Source of the DNA: Acidimicrobiaceae bacterium | Lineage (GTDB): Bacteria > Actinomycetota > Acidimicrobiia > Acidimicrobiales > UBA8592 | Assembly (NCBI GenBank): GCA_024641655.1 | Contig: JAHECR010000011.1 | Coordinates: forward strand, 7,564 to 71,563 | Length of the DNA: 64,000 nucleotides | Reading direction: 5' to 3' | Shown here: piece by piece, positions 4,436 through 37,573 of the stretch | Position numbering within the stretch: position 1 is the first letter of the stretch | Layout: the number at the start of each line of letters is the position of its first letter | Position numbers and translations under genes: made by a program | The notes under the pieces: model-generated | What the model saw: only the letters and a program-made list of their open reading frames with translations | Told to the model about the DNA's origin: nothing | The model's database searches: none

Positions 4436-4609
4436 AGGATGGACACTGCGTTCGCAAGAAGCACGTCGCGTTCGCAGGATGGACACTGCGTTCGCAAGAA
4501 GCACGTCGCGTTCGCAGGATGGACACTGCGTTCGCAAGAAGCACGTCGCGTTCGCAGGATGGACACTGCGTTCGCAAGAAGCACGTCGCGTTCGCAGGAT
4601 GGACACTGC
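4436..4609. repeat. Minisatellite, 40-bp unit, 4 copies plus 14 bp
   Basis: Four identical 40-bp units start at 4436, 4476, 4516 and 4556, with a partial unit at 4596. Each unit is two related 20-bp halves, AGGATGGACACTGCGTTCGC and AAGAAGCACGTCGCGTTCGC, which share their last bases, so GCGTTCGCA recurs every 20 bp, with arms TGCG/CGCA around TT in one half. Complete identity of the copies suggests recent expansion or gene-conversion-like homogenisation. The array sits just upstream of the CBS gene start. Confidence 0.97.
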
Positions 4610-4863
4610 CTGGAGGCGATCCGCTCGCTGGACTCTGGTCGATCTGGACTCTGGTCGATGGAGTTCCGGGTGGGTGATGCAGCAGGACGCTCGAGGCATC
4701 CGGCCCGACATCGTCGGCGGACCAGGGAACGATCCTAGCACGGAAGTGACGATGGTCACATCGCCCGGCGACGCGGGGTCCGGCTCGACGATGCGCCGTG
4801 CTCGGCCGTGACCCGGCGTCGAAGAATCCGGTAAGAGCCGAGCCCGCTCCACCAGCCGCGTCG

Positions 4864-8759: not shown

Positions 8760-8793
8760 CATGGCGCGCCGTCGGTTCCCGGTGACCCACTAC

Positions 8794-8899
8794 GACGGTC
8801 GACGTGGGCGCGCCGCGACGGTCGACATGGGAGCGCGGCGACGGTCGACATGGGAGCGCGGCGACGGTCGACATGGGAGCGCGGCGACGGTCGACATGG
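8794..8899. repeat. Minisatellite, 23-bp unit, about 4.6 copies
   Basis: Units begin at 8794 (diverged), 8817, 8840, 8863 and 8886 (partial). The unit opens with GACGGTCGACATGGGAGCGC and ends GGC; it contains the palindrome GTCGAC. The three central copies are identical. The array ends about 45 bp upstream of the FKBP gene start. Confidence 0.96.
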
Positions 8900-8945: not shown

Positions 8946-9929
8946 ATGGCACGCCCCCTGTCTCTCCGGTTCGTCGCGGCCCTCGCTGCCTTCTTGGTGG
9001 TCCTGAGCGCCTGCGGAGGTGACGACGACACCGCAGCCACGCCGACGCCGACGCCGACGAGTGCCGATCAGTCCGTCGACCCGTCCGAGGCGACCACGAC
9101 ACCCACCGTCGAGCCGACGGCAGCCCCGACCCCGACCCCTGCAGCCGATGTGGACCTCACCGACCTCGCGGTGCGCCCGCTGATCGCCATTCCCGACGGT
9201 GACCCGCCGACCGAGCTCGAGATCGAGGACATCGTCCAAGGCTCGGGAACCGTCGCGCATACTGGCGATGCTGTGCTGATGCGCTACGTGGGAGCGGCCT
9301 GGAGCACGGGTCTCGAGTTCGACGCTTCGTGGAACCGAGATCAGGCGTTTGGGTTCGAGCTGGGCGCCGGCAACGTCATCCCCGGCTGGGACCAGGGGAT
9401 CGAGGGCATGGCGATCGGCGGGCGCCGACGGCTCACGATCCCCGGCGACTTGGCCTACGGGGCCGCCGGGCGTGGTCAGCTGATCGGGCCCGACGAGACC
9501 CTCGTCTTCATCGTGGACCTCGTGGCCGTCGTTCCCACGGACGCGCCGAAGCCGACGGTCACGGTGCCCGACGCCCCAGCCACCGAGTTCAGTTTCGAGG
9601 ATCTCGTCGTCGGGGACGGCCCGATGGTCGAGACCGGAGACACGGTCTACCTGCACTACGTCGGAGTCGCTCAGTCGACCGGCGAGCAGTTCGACGCCTC
9701 GTGGGACCGCGGTCCGGCCCCGGTCATGAAGGTCGCCGGGATCGGCCAGTTCATCCCCGGTATCGAGGCCGGCCTCGTCGGGATGCACGCCGGCGGGCGC
9801 CGCCAGCTGATCATCCCACCCGACCTCGGCTTCGGGGACACCGGTGCCGGTGACGGTGCCATCGCCCCTGGTGAGACGCTGGTGTTCGTGATCGACCTCA
9901 TCTGGGTCGATCATCCCTCTGCGAACTGA
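8946..9929 (+). CDS. Lipoprotein with two FKBP-type peptidyl-prolyl isomerase domains
   Basis: Predicted extracytoplasmic prolyl cis-trans isomerase (327 aa). The signal peptide ends in a lipobox (VVLSACGGD, Cys about residue 21) and is followed by a Thr/Pro-rich linker. FKBP domain 1 covers about residues 97-197 (GDAVLMRYVGAAWSTGLEFDASW... GNVIPGWDQGIEGM... IPGDLAYG) and domain 2 about 214-322 (GDTVYLHYVGVAQSTGEQFDASW... GQFIPGIEAGLVGM... IIPPDLGFGDTG). Both retain the FD, VIPGW-type and YG/FG positions, though domain 2 has I for the canonical Trp. Likely helps folding of secreted proteins. Confidence 0.93.
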   Translation: MARPLSLRFVAALAAFLVVLSACGGDDDTAATPTPTPTSADQSVDPSEATTTPTVEPTAAPTPTPAADVDLTDLAVRPLIAIPDGDPPTELEIEDIVQGSGTVAHTGDAVLMRYVGAAWSTGLEFDASWNRDQAFGFELGAGNVIPGWDQGIEGMAIGGRRRLTIPGDLAYGAAGRGQLIGPDETLVFIVDLVAVVPTDAPKPTVTVPDAPATEFSFEDLVVGDGPMVETGDTVYLHYVGVAQSTGEQFDASWDRGPAPVMKVAGIGQFIPGIEAGLVGMHAGGRRQLIIPPDLGFGDTGAGDGAIAPGETLVFVIDLIWVDHPSAN

Positions 9930-32992: not shown

Positions 32993-33588
32993 GGCGAGCC
33001 TTTCCGCGTCTGGTGCAGTGGTCCTATCGGCCCATTGCTCGTCTGCCTGAGCGAAACGTCGCTTCCGCCCGACGCCCACCGGTGGTCGCCGGTGAGCGGT
33101 TCCCCGAGGAGGATATCTCTCGGGTCGGGGTCGAGGTGTCGGCTCGAGGGAAAAACAAGCTGGTCAGACTGGTCCGAGCGCGGTGATGACGTCGGTCCAG
33201 CGAGCGAGGTCATCGTGGCTCGGAGCGGTGAGCCGCAACCGTTGCACCACCTCGCCGTACCGGCGAAGCAGCTCAGGCGCGACGTCGTCGGGGCAGTCTC
33301 TGTGACCCAGAGCCCGCCGTATCGTGCGGCCTCGCCGGCGCGCGCTGTCGCTGCCAGACGACCCGCGTGGGGCACGGTCTCGAGGTTGCCGTCGACTCGC
33401 ATGTGGAGGATCCAGGACGCCGGGCGCGGTGTCGCCCACCGGGGATGGCCCCCGTTCTGGCACGACCCGCCGGGGTCGCAGTCGGCCCGACGTCACTGCG
33501 AGCGTCGTGTCGGCGCGCGTGGGAAGGCCACGCTCTACGGTGGATCGGCGGTGCCCGACGGCGGTGCCGCGGCAGGAGGACGAGTGAC
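32993..33588. other. Region between ugd and the thiolase-like gene with a gene remnant
   Basis: About 600 bp holding the ugd leader (a TATCCT hexamer at about 33110 on the minus strand, palindrome CCACCGGTGG), the collapsed oxidoreductase remnant at 33164-33402, and the thiolase promoter region (TACGGT at 33536-33541). Nothing else is supported. Confidence 0.6.
33164..33402 (-). pseudogene. Remnant of an F420-dependent LLM-class oxidoreductase
   Basis: Reading from ATG 33402, the first 36 codons (MRVDGNLETVPHAGRL... GGLWVTET) match the N-terminus of luciferase-like F420 oxidoreductases (TIGR03617-like). Reading then continues only in another frame: CPDDVAPELLRRYGEVVQRL... ARWTDVITALGPV, then TGA, which resembles the C-terminus of the same family. 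About 240 central residues are missing and the junction near CACAGAGACTGC shifts the frame. The two ends being in register with one family argues for a single internal deletion of a former full-length gene. Confidence 0.75.
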
Positions 33589-33592
33589 GTGA
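33551..33592 (+). CDS. Possible leaderless micro-ORF overlapping the thiolase-like start
   Basis: TACGGT (33536-33541) ends 9 nt before GTG 33551, which opens a 13-codon frame (VPDGGAAAGGRVT) stopping with TGA at 33590-33592, so it overlaps the thiolase GTG (33589) by GTGA. It also carries GGAGGA inside, which could serve as an ordinary ribosome site, so translation of the micro-ORF itself is unproved. Confidence 0.3.
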   Translation: MPDGGAAAGGRVT

Positions 33593-35067
33593 CGATCGAT
33601 GAGCGCACCCCGGTGGTGGTCGGGGTGGGTCAGTACCGCCAGCAGCTCGACGACCCCACGCAGGCCCTCGAGCAGTACCGCCTCATGGAGGAGGCGCTGC
33701 GCGCCGCGGGGAGCGACAGCGGCAGCGCGGTGTTGGCACAACTCGACGAGGTGGTCGTCATCGGTGGTATGTGGCGCTATCCCGACCCGGGCCGGCTCAT
33801 CGCCGACGCGGTGGGGGCGACGAGCGCCCGGACGGTCCTCACCGCGATGGGCGGGAACATGCCTCAGGCGATCCTGAACGATGCCGCGGCACGGATCGCC
33901 GCAGGCTCGGTCGACGTGGTGGCCATCACCGGGGGAGAGGCGGTGTACAGCAAGAACAAACTTCGCGGGCTCGGGCTCGATCTGCCCCGCACCGGCTATG
34001 ACCTGCCGCCGGCAGGCGGTTTCGGCACCGAGCTGCCGATGTCGTCGTCCCATGAGCTCGAGCGCGGGTTCACCACGCCGACCGAGGTCTACCCGCTGTT
34101 CGAGTCGGCGATTCGTGCCGATCGGGGCGAAAGCCACGACGAGCACCGCCGTCGCATCGGGACGCTCTGGGCGGGCTTCAACGCCGTGGCCGTCGCCAAT
34201 CCCTACGCGTGGAGCCGCACGCCGATGACGGCGGAGGAGATCATCACCGCCTCGCCGTCGAACCGGATGGTCGGCTACCCGTACACGAAGGTCATGAACG
34301 CCAACAGCTTCGTCGACTTCGGCGCCGCGGTCGTCGTGTGCTCCGCGTCCCGGGCCCGGGCGCTCGGCATCGCTCCCGACCAGTGGGTCTTCCCGGTCGC
34401 GGGTGCCGAAGGAACAGCCACGGAGCGCTTCTCGGAGCGTGCGGTCTTCCACGAATCCCCGGCAATCCGCGAGGTCGGTCGCCGGTGCCTCGCGCTCGCC
34501 GAGCTTACCATCGACGAGATCGGCCCCATCGACCTCTACTCCTGTTTCCCCTCGGTCGTGCAGCTCTCCATGCGCGCCCTCGGCATCGCCGAGAGCCGCC
34601 CGGTCACCACGACCGGAGGCCTCACCTTCTTCGGGGGACCGATGAACAGCTACGTGTTGCATGCGATCGCGTCAACGGTCGAAGCCGTCCGCGCGACGGG
34701 GCGCCCCGGGTTCGTGCACGGCAATGGGGGGTATGCGACCAAGCACTCCTGCGGGGTCTACGCGCCGTCGGCCCCTTCGTTCGGGTTTCGTCTCGAAGAC
34801 GTCCAGGCCGCAATCGACACGTACCCCACCAGGGCCGTCGACGAGGCCCCCGACGGCATCGGTCGCGTCGAGAGCTACACCGTCATGCACGGCAAGGACG
34901 GGCCTGATCGAGCCTTGCTGACGCTCATCATGGCCGACGGCGCTCGTGCGCTGGGCCACAGTCGTGACCACGACGTCATGGCCGACATGACCGAGATCGA
35001 ATACGTCGGCCGGTCGGCACGGATAACACCCTCGGGCGCAGTGGTCGACTTCGTCGACCGGGGTTGA
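33589..35067 (+). CDS. Thiolase-like acetyl-CoA acetyltransferase lacking the nucleophilic cysteine
   Basis: Thiolase-superfamily protein (492 aa) as found in lipid or steroid metabolism of actinobacteria. The N-terminal half gives VVVGVGQYRQQ and AAARIAAGSVDVVAITGGEAVYS; the usual Cys of NxxCaSG is replaced in AMGGNMPQAI. The C-terminal half keeps SVVQLSMRALGI, HGNGGYATKHSCGVY with conserved His and Cys. So claisen chemistry of the classical type is doubtful, and a lyase or transferase role is possible. Start GTG 33589 has GGAGGA upstream. The last seven codons VDFVDRG and stop come from the first unit of a minisatellite. Confidence 0.85.
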   Translation: MTIDERTPVVVGVGQYRQQLDDPTQALEQYRLMEEALRAAGSDSGSAVLAQLDEVVVIGGMWRYPDPGRLIADAVGATSARTVLTAMGGNMPQAILNDAAARIAAGSVDVVAITGGEAVYSKNKLRGLGLDLPRTGYDLPPAGGFGTELPMSSSHELERGFTTPTEVYPLFESAIRADRGESHDEHRRRIGTLWAGFNAVAVANPYAWSRTPMTAEEIITASPSNRMVGYPYTKVMNANSFVDFGAAVVVCSASRARALGIAPDQWVFPVAGAEGTATERFSERAVFHESPAIREVGRRCLALAELTIDEIGPIDLYSCFPSVVQLSMRALGIAESRPVTTTGGLTFFGGPMNSYVLHAIASTVEAVRATGRPGFVHGNGGYATKHSCGVYAPSAPSFGFRLEDVQAAIDTYPTRAVDEAPDGIGRVESYTVMHGKDGPDRALLTLIMADGARALGHSRDHDVMADMTEIEYVGRSARITPSGAVVDFVDRG

Positions 35068-35189
35068 CAGTGGTCGACTTCGTCGACCGGGGTTGACAGG
35101 GTCGACTTCGTCGACCGGGGTTGACAGGGTCGACTTCGTCGACCGGGGTTGACAGGGTCGACTTCGTCGACCGGGGTTGACAGGGTCGA
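35044..35189. repeat. Minisatellite, 28-29 bp unit, 5 copies plus partial
   Basis: Units start at 35044, 35073, 35101, 35129, 35157 and partial 35185. Each begins GTCGACTTCGTCGAC, continues CGGGGTTGACAG, and ends G or TG; two GTCGAC palindromes flank TTC. Each full unit contains TTGACA, a perfect -35-type hexamer (35064, 35093, 35121, 35149, 35177). Unit 1 encodes the C-terminus and stop of the thiolase-like gene. The array lies between convergent genes. Confidence 0.97.
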
Positions 35190-35198
35190 GGGCACCGT

Positions 35199-36086
35199 TC
35201 AGAGCAGCCAGCGCCCGGGTCTTGTCTCGTCCACCCGCAGCACCACGTCGCCGACGGGGGAGCCGGGCTGGCCCGGGAGGGTGAACTCGACGACCAGCCG
35301 CGCCTCGGTTTCCGGGCTCTGGTCGACGCCCGGTTCGCGCCGTGCCGCGGCCAGCAGCAGGCGCGCCCGGAAGCTTGCTGCGATATCGATGCCGCCGGCG
35401 CGCCGGACGACGGCGGCGGATGAGCCCGCTGAGGGATGGATCTGCGTCTCCAGCGTGACCGCCCCGGCCGACGATCCGGGAAACGACACGGTTGCGGCGA
35501 AGTCGCGATCGGCGATCGTCTCGACCCTCGCCCCCAGCGTCAGCTCGATGACGCCGCGATAGACGAACAGGTCGCTGCCCTCCGACGTGGCCGACCGCTC
35601 GAGCCACGCGCCGGCGATCGGCGACGAGGGCAGCCCCTCGGCAGGCTCGCCGCGATGGGCTGGCGGCACCCGAGCGCGACCGAGCGCGCCGTTCTCGTAC
35701 CAGGGCACGACCGCCCTGCCGTGATGGGTCGCGGTGATCAACTCCGCCGCGTGGTGGACGAAAGCCGCGACCACGTACCTCTCGCCGACGTCGACGACCA
35801 CGACGTCGAAGTCGGCGGGGAACCCGGGAAACCGGCTCCGCACCTCGTCCCAGTACTCCTGCGGCGGGGGAGTCGCGACCCCGACCACGGCCCGGTGCTC
35901 CACGCCGATGAGCAGGAGTGCCGTCCGGTCACCGGCGCTGTTGGCGAGCCCGGCGAGTGTGCGGGTGGTTCGTTTCGGACGTGGCGGTTCGGACGCAGTT
36001 GCGACGAGCAGACGCGGGTCGGAACGCCCCTGCACGGCGAGCTCGACGACTCGGAGCGTCAGCGCCTCGAACGCGACCGGATCCAC
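35199..36086 (-). CDS. Hypothetical protein with AlbA_2/Schlafen-like N-terminal domain
   Basis: Unrecognised soluble protein (295 aa) from the GTG at 36086; a longer frame to 36353 is improbable. The first 140 residues (LVATASEPPRPKRTTRTLAGLANS... TALLLIGVEHRAVVGV... VVVVDVGERYVVAAFV) resemble the AlbA_2 putative DNA-binding fold found in divergent AAA-4 proteins, in which LANS-x-GG-x-LLIGV is typical, but no ATPase domain follows. The C-terminal half is beta-rich (LFVYRGVIELTLGARVETIADRD) with no known motif. The similarity is weak. Confidence 0.65.
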   Translation of the reverse strand: MDPVAFEALTLRVVELAVQGRSDPRLLVATASEPPRPKRTTRTLAGLANSAGDRTALLLIGVEHRAVVGVATPPPQEYWDEVRSRFPGFPADFDVVVVDVGERYVVAAFVHHAAELITATHHGRAVVPWYENGALGRARVPPAHRGEPAEGLPSSPIAGAWLERSATSEGSDLFVYRGVIELTLGARVETIADRDFAATVSFPGSSAGAVTLETQIHPSAGSSAAVVRRAGGIDIAASFRARLLLAAARREPGVDQSPETEARLVVEFTLPGQPGSPVGDVVLRVDETRPGRWLL

Positions 36087-36231
36087 CGCCCCAGTGTGCG
36101 TGCTCGAGTCGGCAAGGGCCAGCGCCGCGTGGCGTCGAACCCGGGGGAAGGAACGTCGAGCCCAGGGAAGGTGCGCCGAGCACGGCAGAGCGCGTCGGGC
36201 CCCCCGCAGCGCGTGGGGCCGGCTCCGGCGA

Positions 36232-36678
36232 TCAGGCCGCAGCGCGGGAGAGTGCGTCGATCGCAGCGTCCGCGAACGTCGCGGTCGCCTCGGTGAGATC
36301 GGGACGTCGCGGACCCCGGACCCGCAGCCCTGCGGTGGCGACCACGTCGGCACCGCGTTCAGTCGCCCAGTCCGCGAGGCCGGCCAACGAGCGCTTCGGG
36401 CTGATCTCGTAGGTTACGAAAACCGCAACGTTGCGGTGAGCGATCGAGGGGAGCGCGTTCAGCTTTCCGATCTGCGCCGGTTTGGCCGCGATGCCGAAGA
36501 GCCCGTCGGTCCAGGTCCCGATGACGATGAGGTCGGCCTTGAGCACGAACTGCGCGTCGAATTGCGTCACCGGGTAGACCCCGACGGTGGCGTTGCGGGC
36601 TTCGAAGGCCTCACCGATCCGGTGGGCGGCACGCTCGGTGCCTCCCCGGAGGCTCTGATACAGGACTGCGACGTTCAC
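36232..36678 (-). CDS. Flavodoxin-like protein
   Basis: Single-domain protein (148 aa) of the flavodoxin fold. VNVAVLYQSLRGGTERAAHRIGEAF corresponds to the FMN phosphate-binding loop (here SLRGGTERAA), and LIVIGTWTDGLFGIAA matches the second FMN loop. GTG 36678 is fixed by TACGTT (36686-36691) 7 nt upstream. Could act in one-electron transfer; its partner is unknown. It runs the same direction as surE, 60 bp behind. Confidence 0.85.
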   Translation of the reverse strand: MNVAVLYQSLRGGTERAAHRIGEAFEARNATVGVYPVTQFDAQFVLKADLIVIGTWTDGLFGIAAKPAQIGKLNALPSIAHRNVAVFVTYEISPKRSLAGLADWATERGADVVATAGLRVRGPRRPDLTEATATFADAAIDALSRAAA

Positions 36679-36685
36679 GCCGCAG

Positions 36686-36691
36686 AACGTA
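36686..36691 (-). promoter_or_regulatory. -10 element (TACGTT) of the flavodoxin gene
   Basis: Minus-strand hexamer ends 7 nt before GTG 36678, supporting a leaderless mRNA that starts downstream of the surE stop. Confidence 0.5.
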
Positions 36692-36739
36692 GCACCGGTG
36701 CGCCCACCGACGAGAAGATGAGCGCCGAGGTGATCGTCG

Positions 36740-37573
36740 TCAGCGTCGGAGGAGTCGGTCGATCGCCGACCCCAGCGACGTGACGTCGCCGGACCCCGCG
36801 CGTCCGAGTTCGCTGAGCCAGGTGAGGGCGACGTGACCGGTGGCGACCGCGCCGGCATCGGTCGTCGGATCGGGTGCACCCCGTCGGGCTCCGTCCCAGG
36901 CCATCTGCAGGTGGAAGGCGCCTTCGTGGCCCGGCTTGGGCTCGCGTTTGACCGTGGTGAGGCTGTTGACCGGTGTCGACTCGACATCGGCATGGACCCA
37001 TCCCTGGAGGTCGGCGAGCTCCACGTTGGGGACATTGAGGTTGAGCACCTGCGGCCGCGCCGGCGGATGGTTGATGAGGTCTCGGGCGACGACGGCGGCA
37101 ATCGTCGCCGCGGTGTGCCATTTCTGGGCGTCGAGCCCCTCCTCGACGCCCTGACCGAGATGGCTCCCACGGGGCACGGATTGGCTCACCGCGATGGCGT
37201 TGATGCCGCCCTGGCGGGCGGTCAACGCCGCCCCGACCGTGCCCGAGTGGTAGATGGCACCACCGACGTTGGCACCGGGGTTGATGCCGGCCACCACGAG
37301 GTCGAACGACCCACCCTCGATCGCGCCGAGCCCGGCGAACAGGACGCACAGCGCCGGCGCACCGGTGATGCTCCATGCCTCGTCGATGCCGGCAACCGAT
37401 GCCCGGTGCAGTTCGGGCTTGATCAGATGGACCGGGCCGAGGCTGGCTCCCGCTCCGGAATATTCGGCGTCGGGTGCGCACACCACGACGTCGCCGAGCG
37501 GCAGCAGTGAACGGGCGAGCTCGTGGAGGCCGAGCGAGTCGATGCCGTCGTCGTTGGTCACGAGGATGCGCAT
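36740..37573 (-). CDS. surE: 5'/3'-nucleotidase SurE
   Basis: Metal-dependent nucleoside-monophosphatase of the stationary-phase survival family (277 aa). The N-terminus MRILVTNDDGIDSLGLHEL carries the metal-binding NDDG, and the SurE signature VAGINPGANVGGAIYHSGTVGAAL is at about residue 95-118; a tetramer-forming C-terminal extension ends LGSAIDRLLRR. Start ATG 37573 is preceded by TAGGGT (37580-37585) at 6 nt. Confidence 0.93.
   Translation of the reverse strand: MRILVTNDDGIDSLGLHELARSLLPLGDVVVCAPDAEYSGAGASLGPVHLIKPELHRASVAGIDEAWSITGAPALCVLFAGLGAIEGGSFDLVVAGINPGANVGGAIYHSGTVGAALTARQGGINAIAVSQSVPRGSHLGQGVEEGLDAQKWHTAATIAAVVARDLINHPPARPQVLNLNVPNVELADLQGWVHADVESTPVNSLTTVKREPKPGHEGAFHLQMAWDGARRGAPDPTTDAGAVATGHVALTWLSELGRAGSGDVTSLGSAIDRLLRR

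Follow-up and report, generated by a model that had tools for sequence, protein, structure and literature searches.

The array and the genes that flank it

The window (the whole stretch of 64,000 nucleotides that was analysed) contains a tandem array at 35039-35189 made of five near-identical units of 28-29 bp and a 9 bp remnant. TRF reported the interval 35043-35189 with a period of 28, 5.2 copies, 99% matches and a score of 285. In the register CAG...TGA, split at each TGA, the units measure 29, 29, 28, 28 and 28 bp and are followed by CAGGGTCGA. The array occupies the gap between two convergent genes, and the features of the locus are the following.

33589..35067, plus strand: 492 aa thiolase-like protein type 1 (PRK08257-like acetyl-CoA acetyltransferase) with a probable GTG start and its TGA in unit 1
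35039..35067, plus strand: unit 1, 29 bp, CAGTGGTCGACTTCGTCGACCGGGGTTGA, the gene's last codons and stop; probable founder (from the sequence, the unit split and the alignment of homologue ends)
35068-35096, plus strand: unit 2, 29 bp, non-coding copy (TRF and unit split)
35097-35180, plus strand: units 3-5, 28 bp each, non-coding copies (TRF and unit split)
35181..35189, plus strand: 3' remnant CAGGGTCGA, which probably represents the other half of the direct repeat that founded the array
35043..35059, also at 35072, 35100, 35128 and 35156, no strand assigned: perfect hairpin GGTCGAC-TTC-GTCGACC, one per unit
35199..36353, minus strand: convergent gene with no assigned function, start uncertain, stop 9 bp past the array

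The source assembly is fragmented (121 contigs, 92.8% complete, 5.7% contaminated) and probably metagenomic, and the copy number of the array may itself be wrong, as about 150 bp of near-perfect units approaches the length of a short read.

The thiolase-like protein matches Pfam PF18313 (TLP1_add_C) at 2.2e-10 and NCBIfam NF006103 at 2.2e-141, the latter yet under the family cutoff; the closest NCBIfam entry is PRK08257 acetyl-CoA acetyltransferase, and homologues within the family are about 60% identical. Its C-terminus, ...SGAVVDFVDRG, is followed by the TGA that ends the gene at 35067, within unit 1. This confirms an earlier reading made from the sequence alone, which had placed the end of the gene (VDFVDRG, TGA) in the first repeat unit. 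That reading was also right that gain or loss of whole units spares the protein, since the same last codons and TGA are found in every unit. The convergent gene had no Pfam or NCBIfam match; it is probably real, because its residues 98-382 have a homologue with 38% identity in a genome of the same family. Without the four extra units, the stops of the two genes would lie about 18 bp apart, which is the usual spacing for convergent pairs in this genome.

Homologues and the probable order of events

We compared the gene ends of about 30 homologous loci with 47-63% identity, some of which represent one genome present in two collections. The homologous proteins stop at nearly the same alignment column, the closer ones 2-4 residues earlier than this protein, with C-termini such as ...NGTVNVLTG, ...EGKVNVFSA, ...TGDFMLRGD and GEFVIKS in place of the SGAVVDFVDRG found here. 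A repeat at the gene end was absent from all homologous loci whose downstream sequence was inspected, and the unit pattern was absent from 59 relatives. The claim of the sequence-only reading that the minisatellite supplies the C-terminus is therefore probably wrong. As repeat-free homologues end at nearly the same place, the gene end most likely founded the array, and not the array the gene end, and the ancestral locus would have been single-copy.

The units differ by one base, an extra T that is present in units 1 and 2 and missing from units 3-5 and from the remnant. This order fits the birth of the array by slippage or unequal recombination, as does the imperfect direct repeat CAG(T)GGTCGA that flanks it, with CAGTGGTCGA opening unit 1 and CAGGGTCGA following the last TGA. 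Within the window, the exact 15-mer GTCGACTTCGTCGAC is confined to the five units, and the 17-mer GGTCGACTTCGTCGACC is restricted to them genome-wide. Viral contigs contained no exact match to the unit, and plasmid records contained nothing similar to it.

With tandem units of at least 10 bp, several copies and high identity, the array has the properties of an intergenic minisatellite. It resembles bacterial intergenic minisatellites or VNTR loci, which are head-to-tail, near-identical, mostly intergenic and species-specific, but differs from them in that its first unit includes a gene's final codons and stop and in that it is known here from one copy number. MIRUs are also actinobacterial tandem units at gene ends whose copy number can change without breaking the gene; however, they are dispersed homologous elements inserted at start codons, with a coupled ORF (PMC12548453), whereas the 28 bp unit is not dispersed, its core being found at a single locus where two genes converge, and lies at a stop codon. 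REP/BIME units likewise share a palindromic core, an intergenic position and clustering, but no dispersed palindromic family of this unit was found in the genome.

Other arrays in the genome

We scanned stretches amounting to 1.56 Mb, or about 40% of the genome, for arrays with a unit of at least 10 bp, at least 2.5 copies and at least 90% matches. The scan returned 39 arrays, indicating that minisatellites are common in this genome. A smaller sample of 0.90 Mb had 30 arrays per Mb, compared with 17.5 per Mb over 0.4 Mb taken from two other genomes of the order, although the numbers are small. Five of the 39 arrays extend across a stop codon, including the one at 35039-35189; the others are listed below.

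C106:253662-253804 (= L112:3163-3305): 26 bp, 5.5 copies; first unit formed by the gene's six terminal codons plus the stop (VDPVDD*); unit hairpin GTCGAC-CCG-GTCGAC
C106:79738-79883: 25 bp, 5.8 copies, 100% identical; first unit formed by the gene end KELKLL*; hairpin GGAGCT-GA-AGCTCC
C107:11212-11293: no hairpin
L105:14049-14093: no hairpin

At C106:253662-253804 a CBS-domain-like gene faces a convergent luciferase-like monooxygenase gene (both were named by eye, with no profile search). The array at C106:79738-79883 enters an assembly gap (Ns), and another unit-like stretch lies past the gap. A hairpin across the last codons is present in three of the five stop-straddling arrays, namely the two with hairpins above and the array of this study.

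Of about 23 arrays that do not lie entirely within genes, five straddle a stop, where random placement of a 26 bp founder would give 9% (P = 0.053); these counts are approximate, coming from a crude ORF caller that placed the window arrays at 4436 and 8793 inside a gene, probably wrongly. The excess is barely above random placement and does not reach a significant preference, so tolerance alone comes close to predicting the stop position. Hairpins were modestly enriched over 14 non-coding long-unit arrays (Fisher P = 0.0027, and 0.016 when this array is left out), in an exploratory comparison devised after the first cases had been seen. Slippage on hairpins with short flanking direct repeats may explain this enrichment without selection.

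Other repeats were also observed. At 4436-4609 of the window, a 40 bp unit with 100% identity is repeated 4.3 times. This array lies immediately before the probable start of a gene on the minus strand and would form part of its leader; a 16 bp repeat in two copies follows at 4628-4659. A 23 bp unit in 4.7 copies (96%), the first of them diverged, lies at 8793-8899, in the gap before a gene starting at 8946. At C106:343607-343766, seven copies of a 23 bp unit (97%) are apparently within a long ORF, although a unit length of 23 is not divisible by three.

Alternative explanations and the probable origin of the array

TTGACA occurs once per unit, at 35064, 35093, 35121, 35149 and 35177, and the earlier observation of a perfect hexamer in phase in every unit was thus confirmed. 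The dinucleotide composition predicts about 5.3 occurrences per strand in 64 kb; one founder copy is therefore nothing unusual, and the five are one founder motif copied by the repeat. That these hexamers act as the -35 boxes of a variable promoter array driving antisense transcripts into the convergent gene is extremely improbable: each unit does carry the perfect TTGACA, but no unit has a -10 hexamer 15-20 bp downstream (the best has 2 of 6 matches to TATAAT) that could complete a promoter with 16-18 bp spacing, a promoter scan of 33000-37000 returned no promoter-like site, and the hexamer is explained by its founder copy. The minus strand of the window has no TTGACA. The promoter role hinted at by the sequence-only reading is consequently unsupported. 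It is also very unlikely that the array arose from a mobile or dispersed repeat of REP or MIRU type that was inserted at the gene end and later amplified. The 26 bp array at C106:253662-253804, which has a GTCGAC-N3-GTCGAC hairpin and spans another stop codon, could speak for such an element, but its match to the unit is only 78%, gapped and on the opposite strand. Moreover, the unit core is found nowhere else in the genome, there is no clear family of single dispersed copies, and unit 1 aligns with the native C-termini of the homologues.

More weight can be given to termination. The unit hairpin has 7 bp arms (shuffle P = 0.0055) and a predicted energy of -9.5 kcal/mol, and the fold of the whole array has a z of -5.3 against shuffles, as any tandem palindrome must. 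No known RNA family attained its gathering score. The array could be an amplified bidirectional terminator under selection, each unit adding a GC-rich hairpin between the convergent genes. This is consistent with the hairpin in every unit, with the two other stop-straddling arrays of unlike sequence that have hairpins across their last codons, and with the enrichment of hairpin units among non-coding arrays. It also agrees with a modest excess of predicted structure that convergent gene ends of this genome show at +15 to +45 from the stop (-11.3 versus about -9.8 kcal/mol), a zone into which the hairpins of units 2 and 3 fall. On the other hand, no T tract (U tract in the RNA) was found at the array, which therefore has the hairpin but not the remainder of a canonical Rho-independent terminator. 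Perfect stems of at least 7 bp are not more frequent at convergent stops than they are within genes, which argues against a general use of strong hairpins as terminators there; two of the five stop-straddling arrays have no hairpin; and hairpins promote slippage too, so that their enrichment needs no selection. We consider a selected terminator rather unlikely. The array hairpins might reinforce termination, but the case for this predicted effect is weak, because such stems are not enriched at convergent stops and a U-tract terminator is missing.

Taken together, we favour, with a probability of about 0.8, a species-specific, neutral or near-neutral minisatellite that arose by tandem duplication where the thiolase-like gene has its 3' end. 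A stretch of 28-29 bp comprising the last codons, the stop and the imperfect direct repeat would have been duplicated into the gap before the convergent gene, by replication slippage or unequal recombination. The flanking pair CAGTGGTCGA / CAGGGTCGA would permit the first slippage, and the hairpin GGTCGAC-TTC-GTCGACC probably assists the duplication; a hairpin with short flanking direct repeats is an established slippage substrate, as shown for deletions (PMC4134008). The array would be tolerated because unit 1 preserves the reading frame and the stop and further copies are untranslated, and the extra hairpin copies past the stop may reinforce termination between both convergent genes.

The three independent cases with a hairpin, seen in 40% of a single genome, also raise the idea that, in this lineage, hairpins in last codons repeatedly seed arrays that start at the gene's own stop, gene ends being nurseries of expandable terminators whose strength tracks unit number. 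We regard this as quite unlikely, and such recurrent arrays would matter only if unit number alters termination. By itself the locus is ordinary and the array is an ordinary intergenic minisatellite, but its origin at a stop codon is instructive. It offers a clear example of how a minisatellite may arise at a place where duplication of any length never alters the protein, and suggests that gene ends in compact genomes are safe sites for the growth of arrays.
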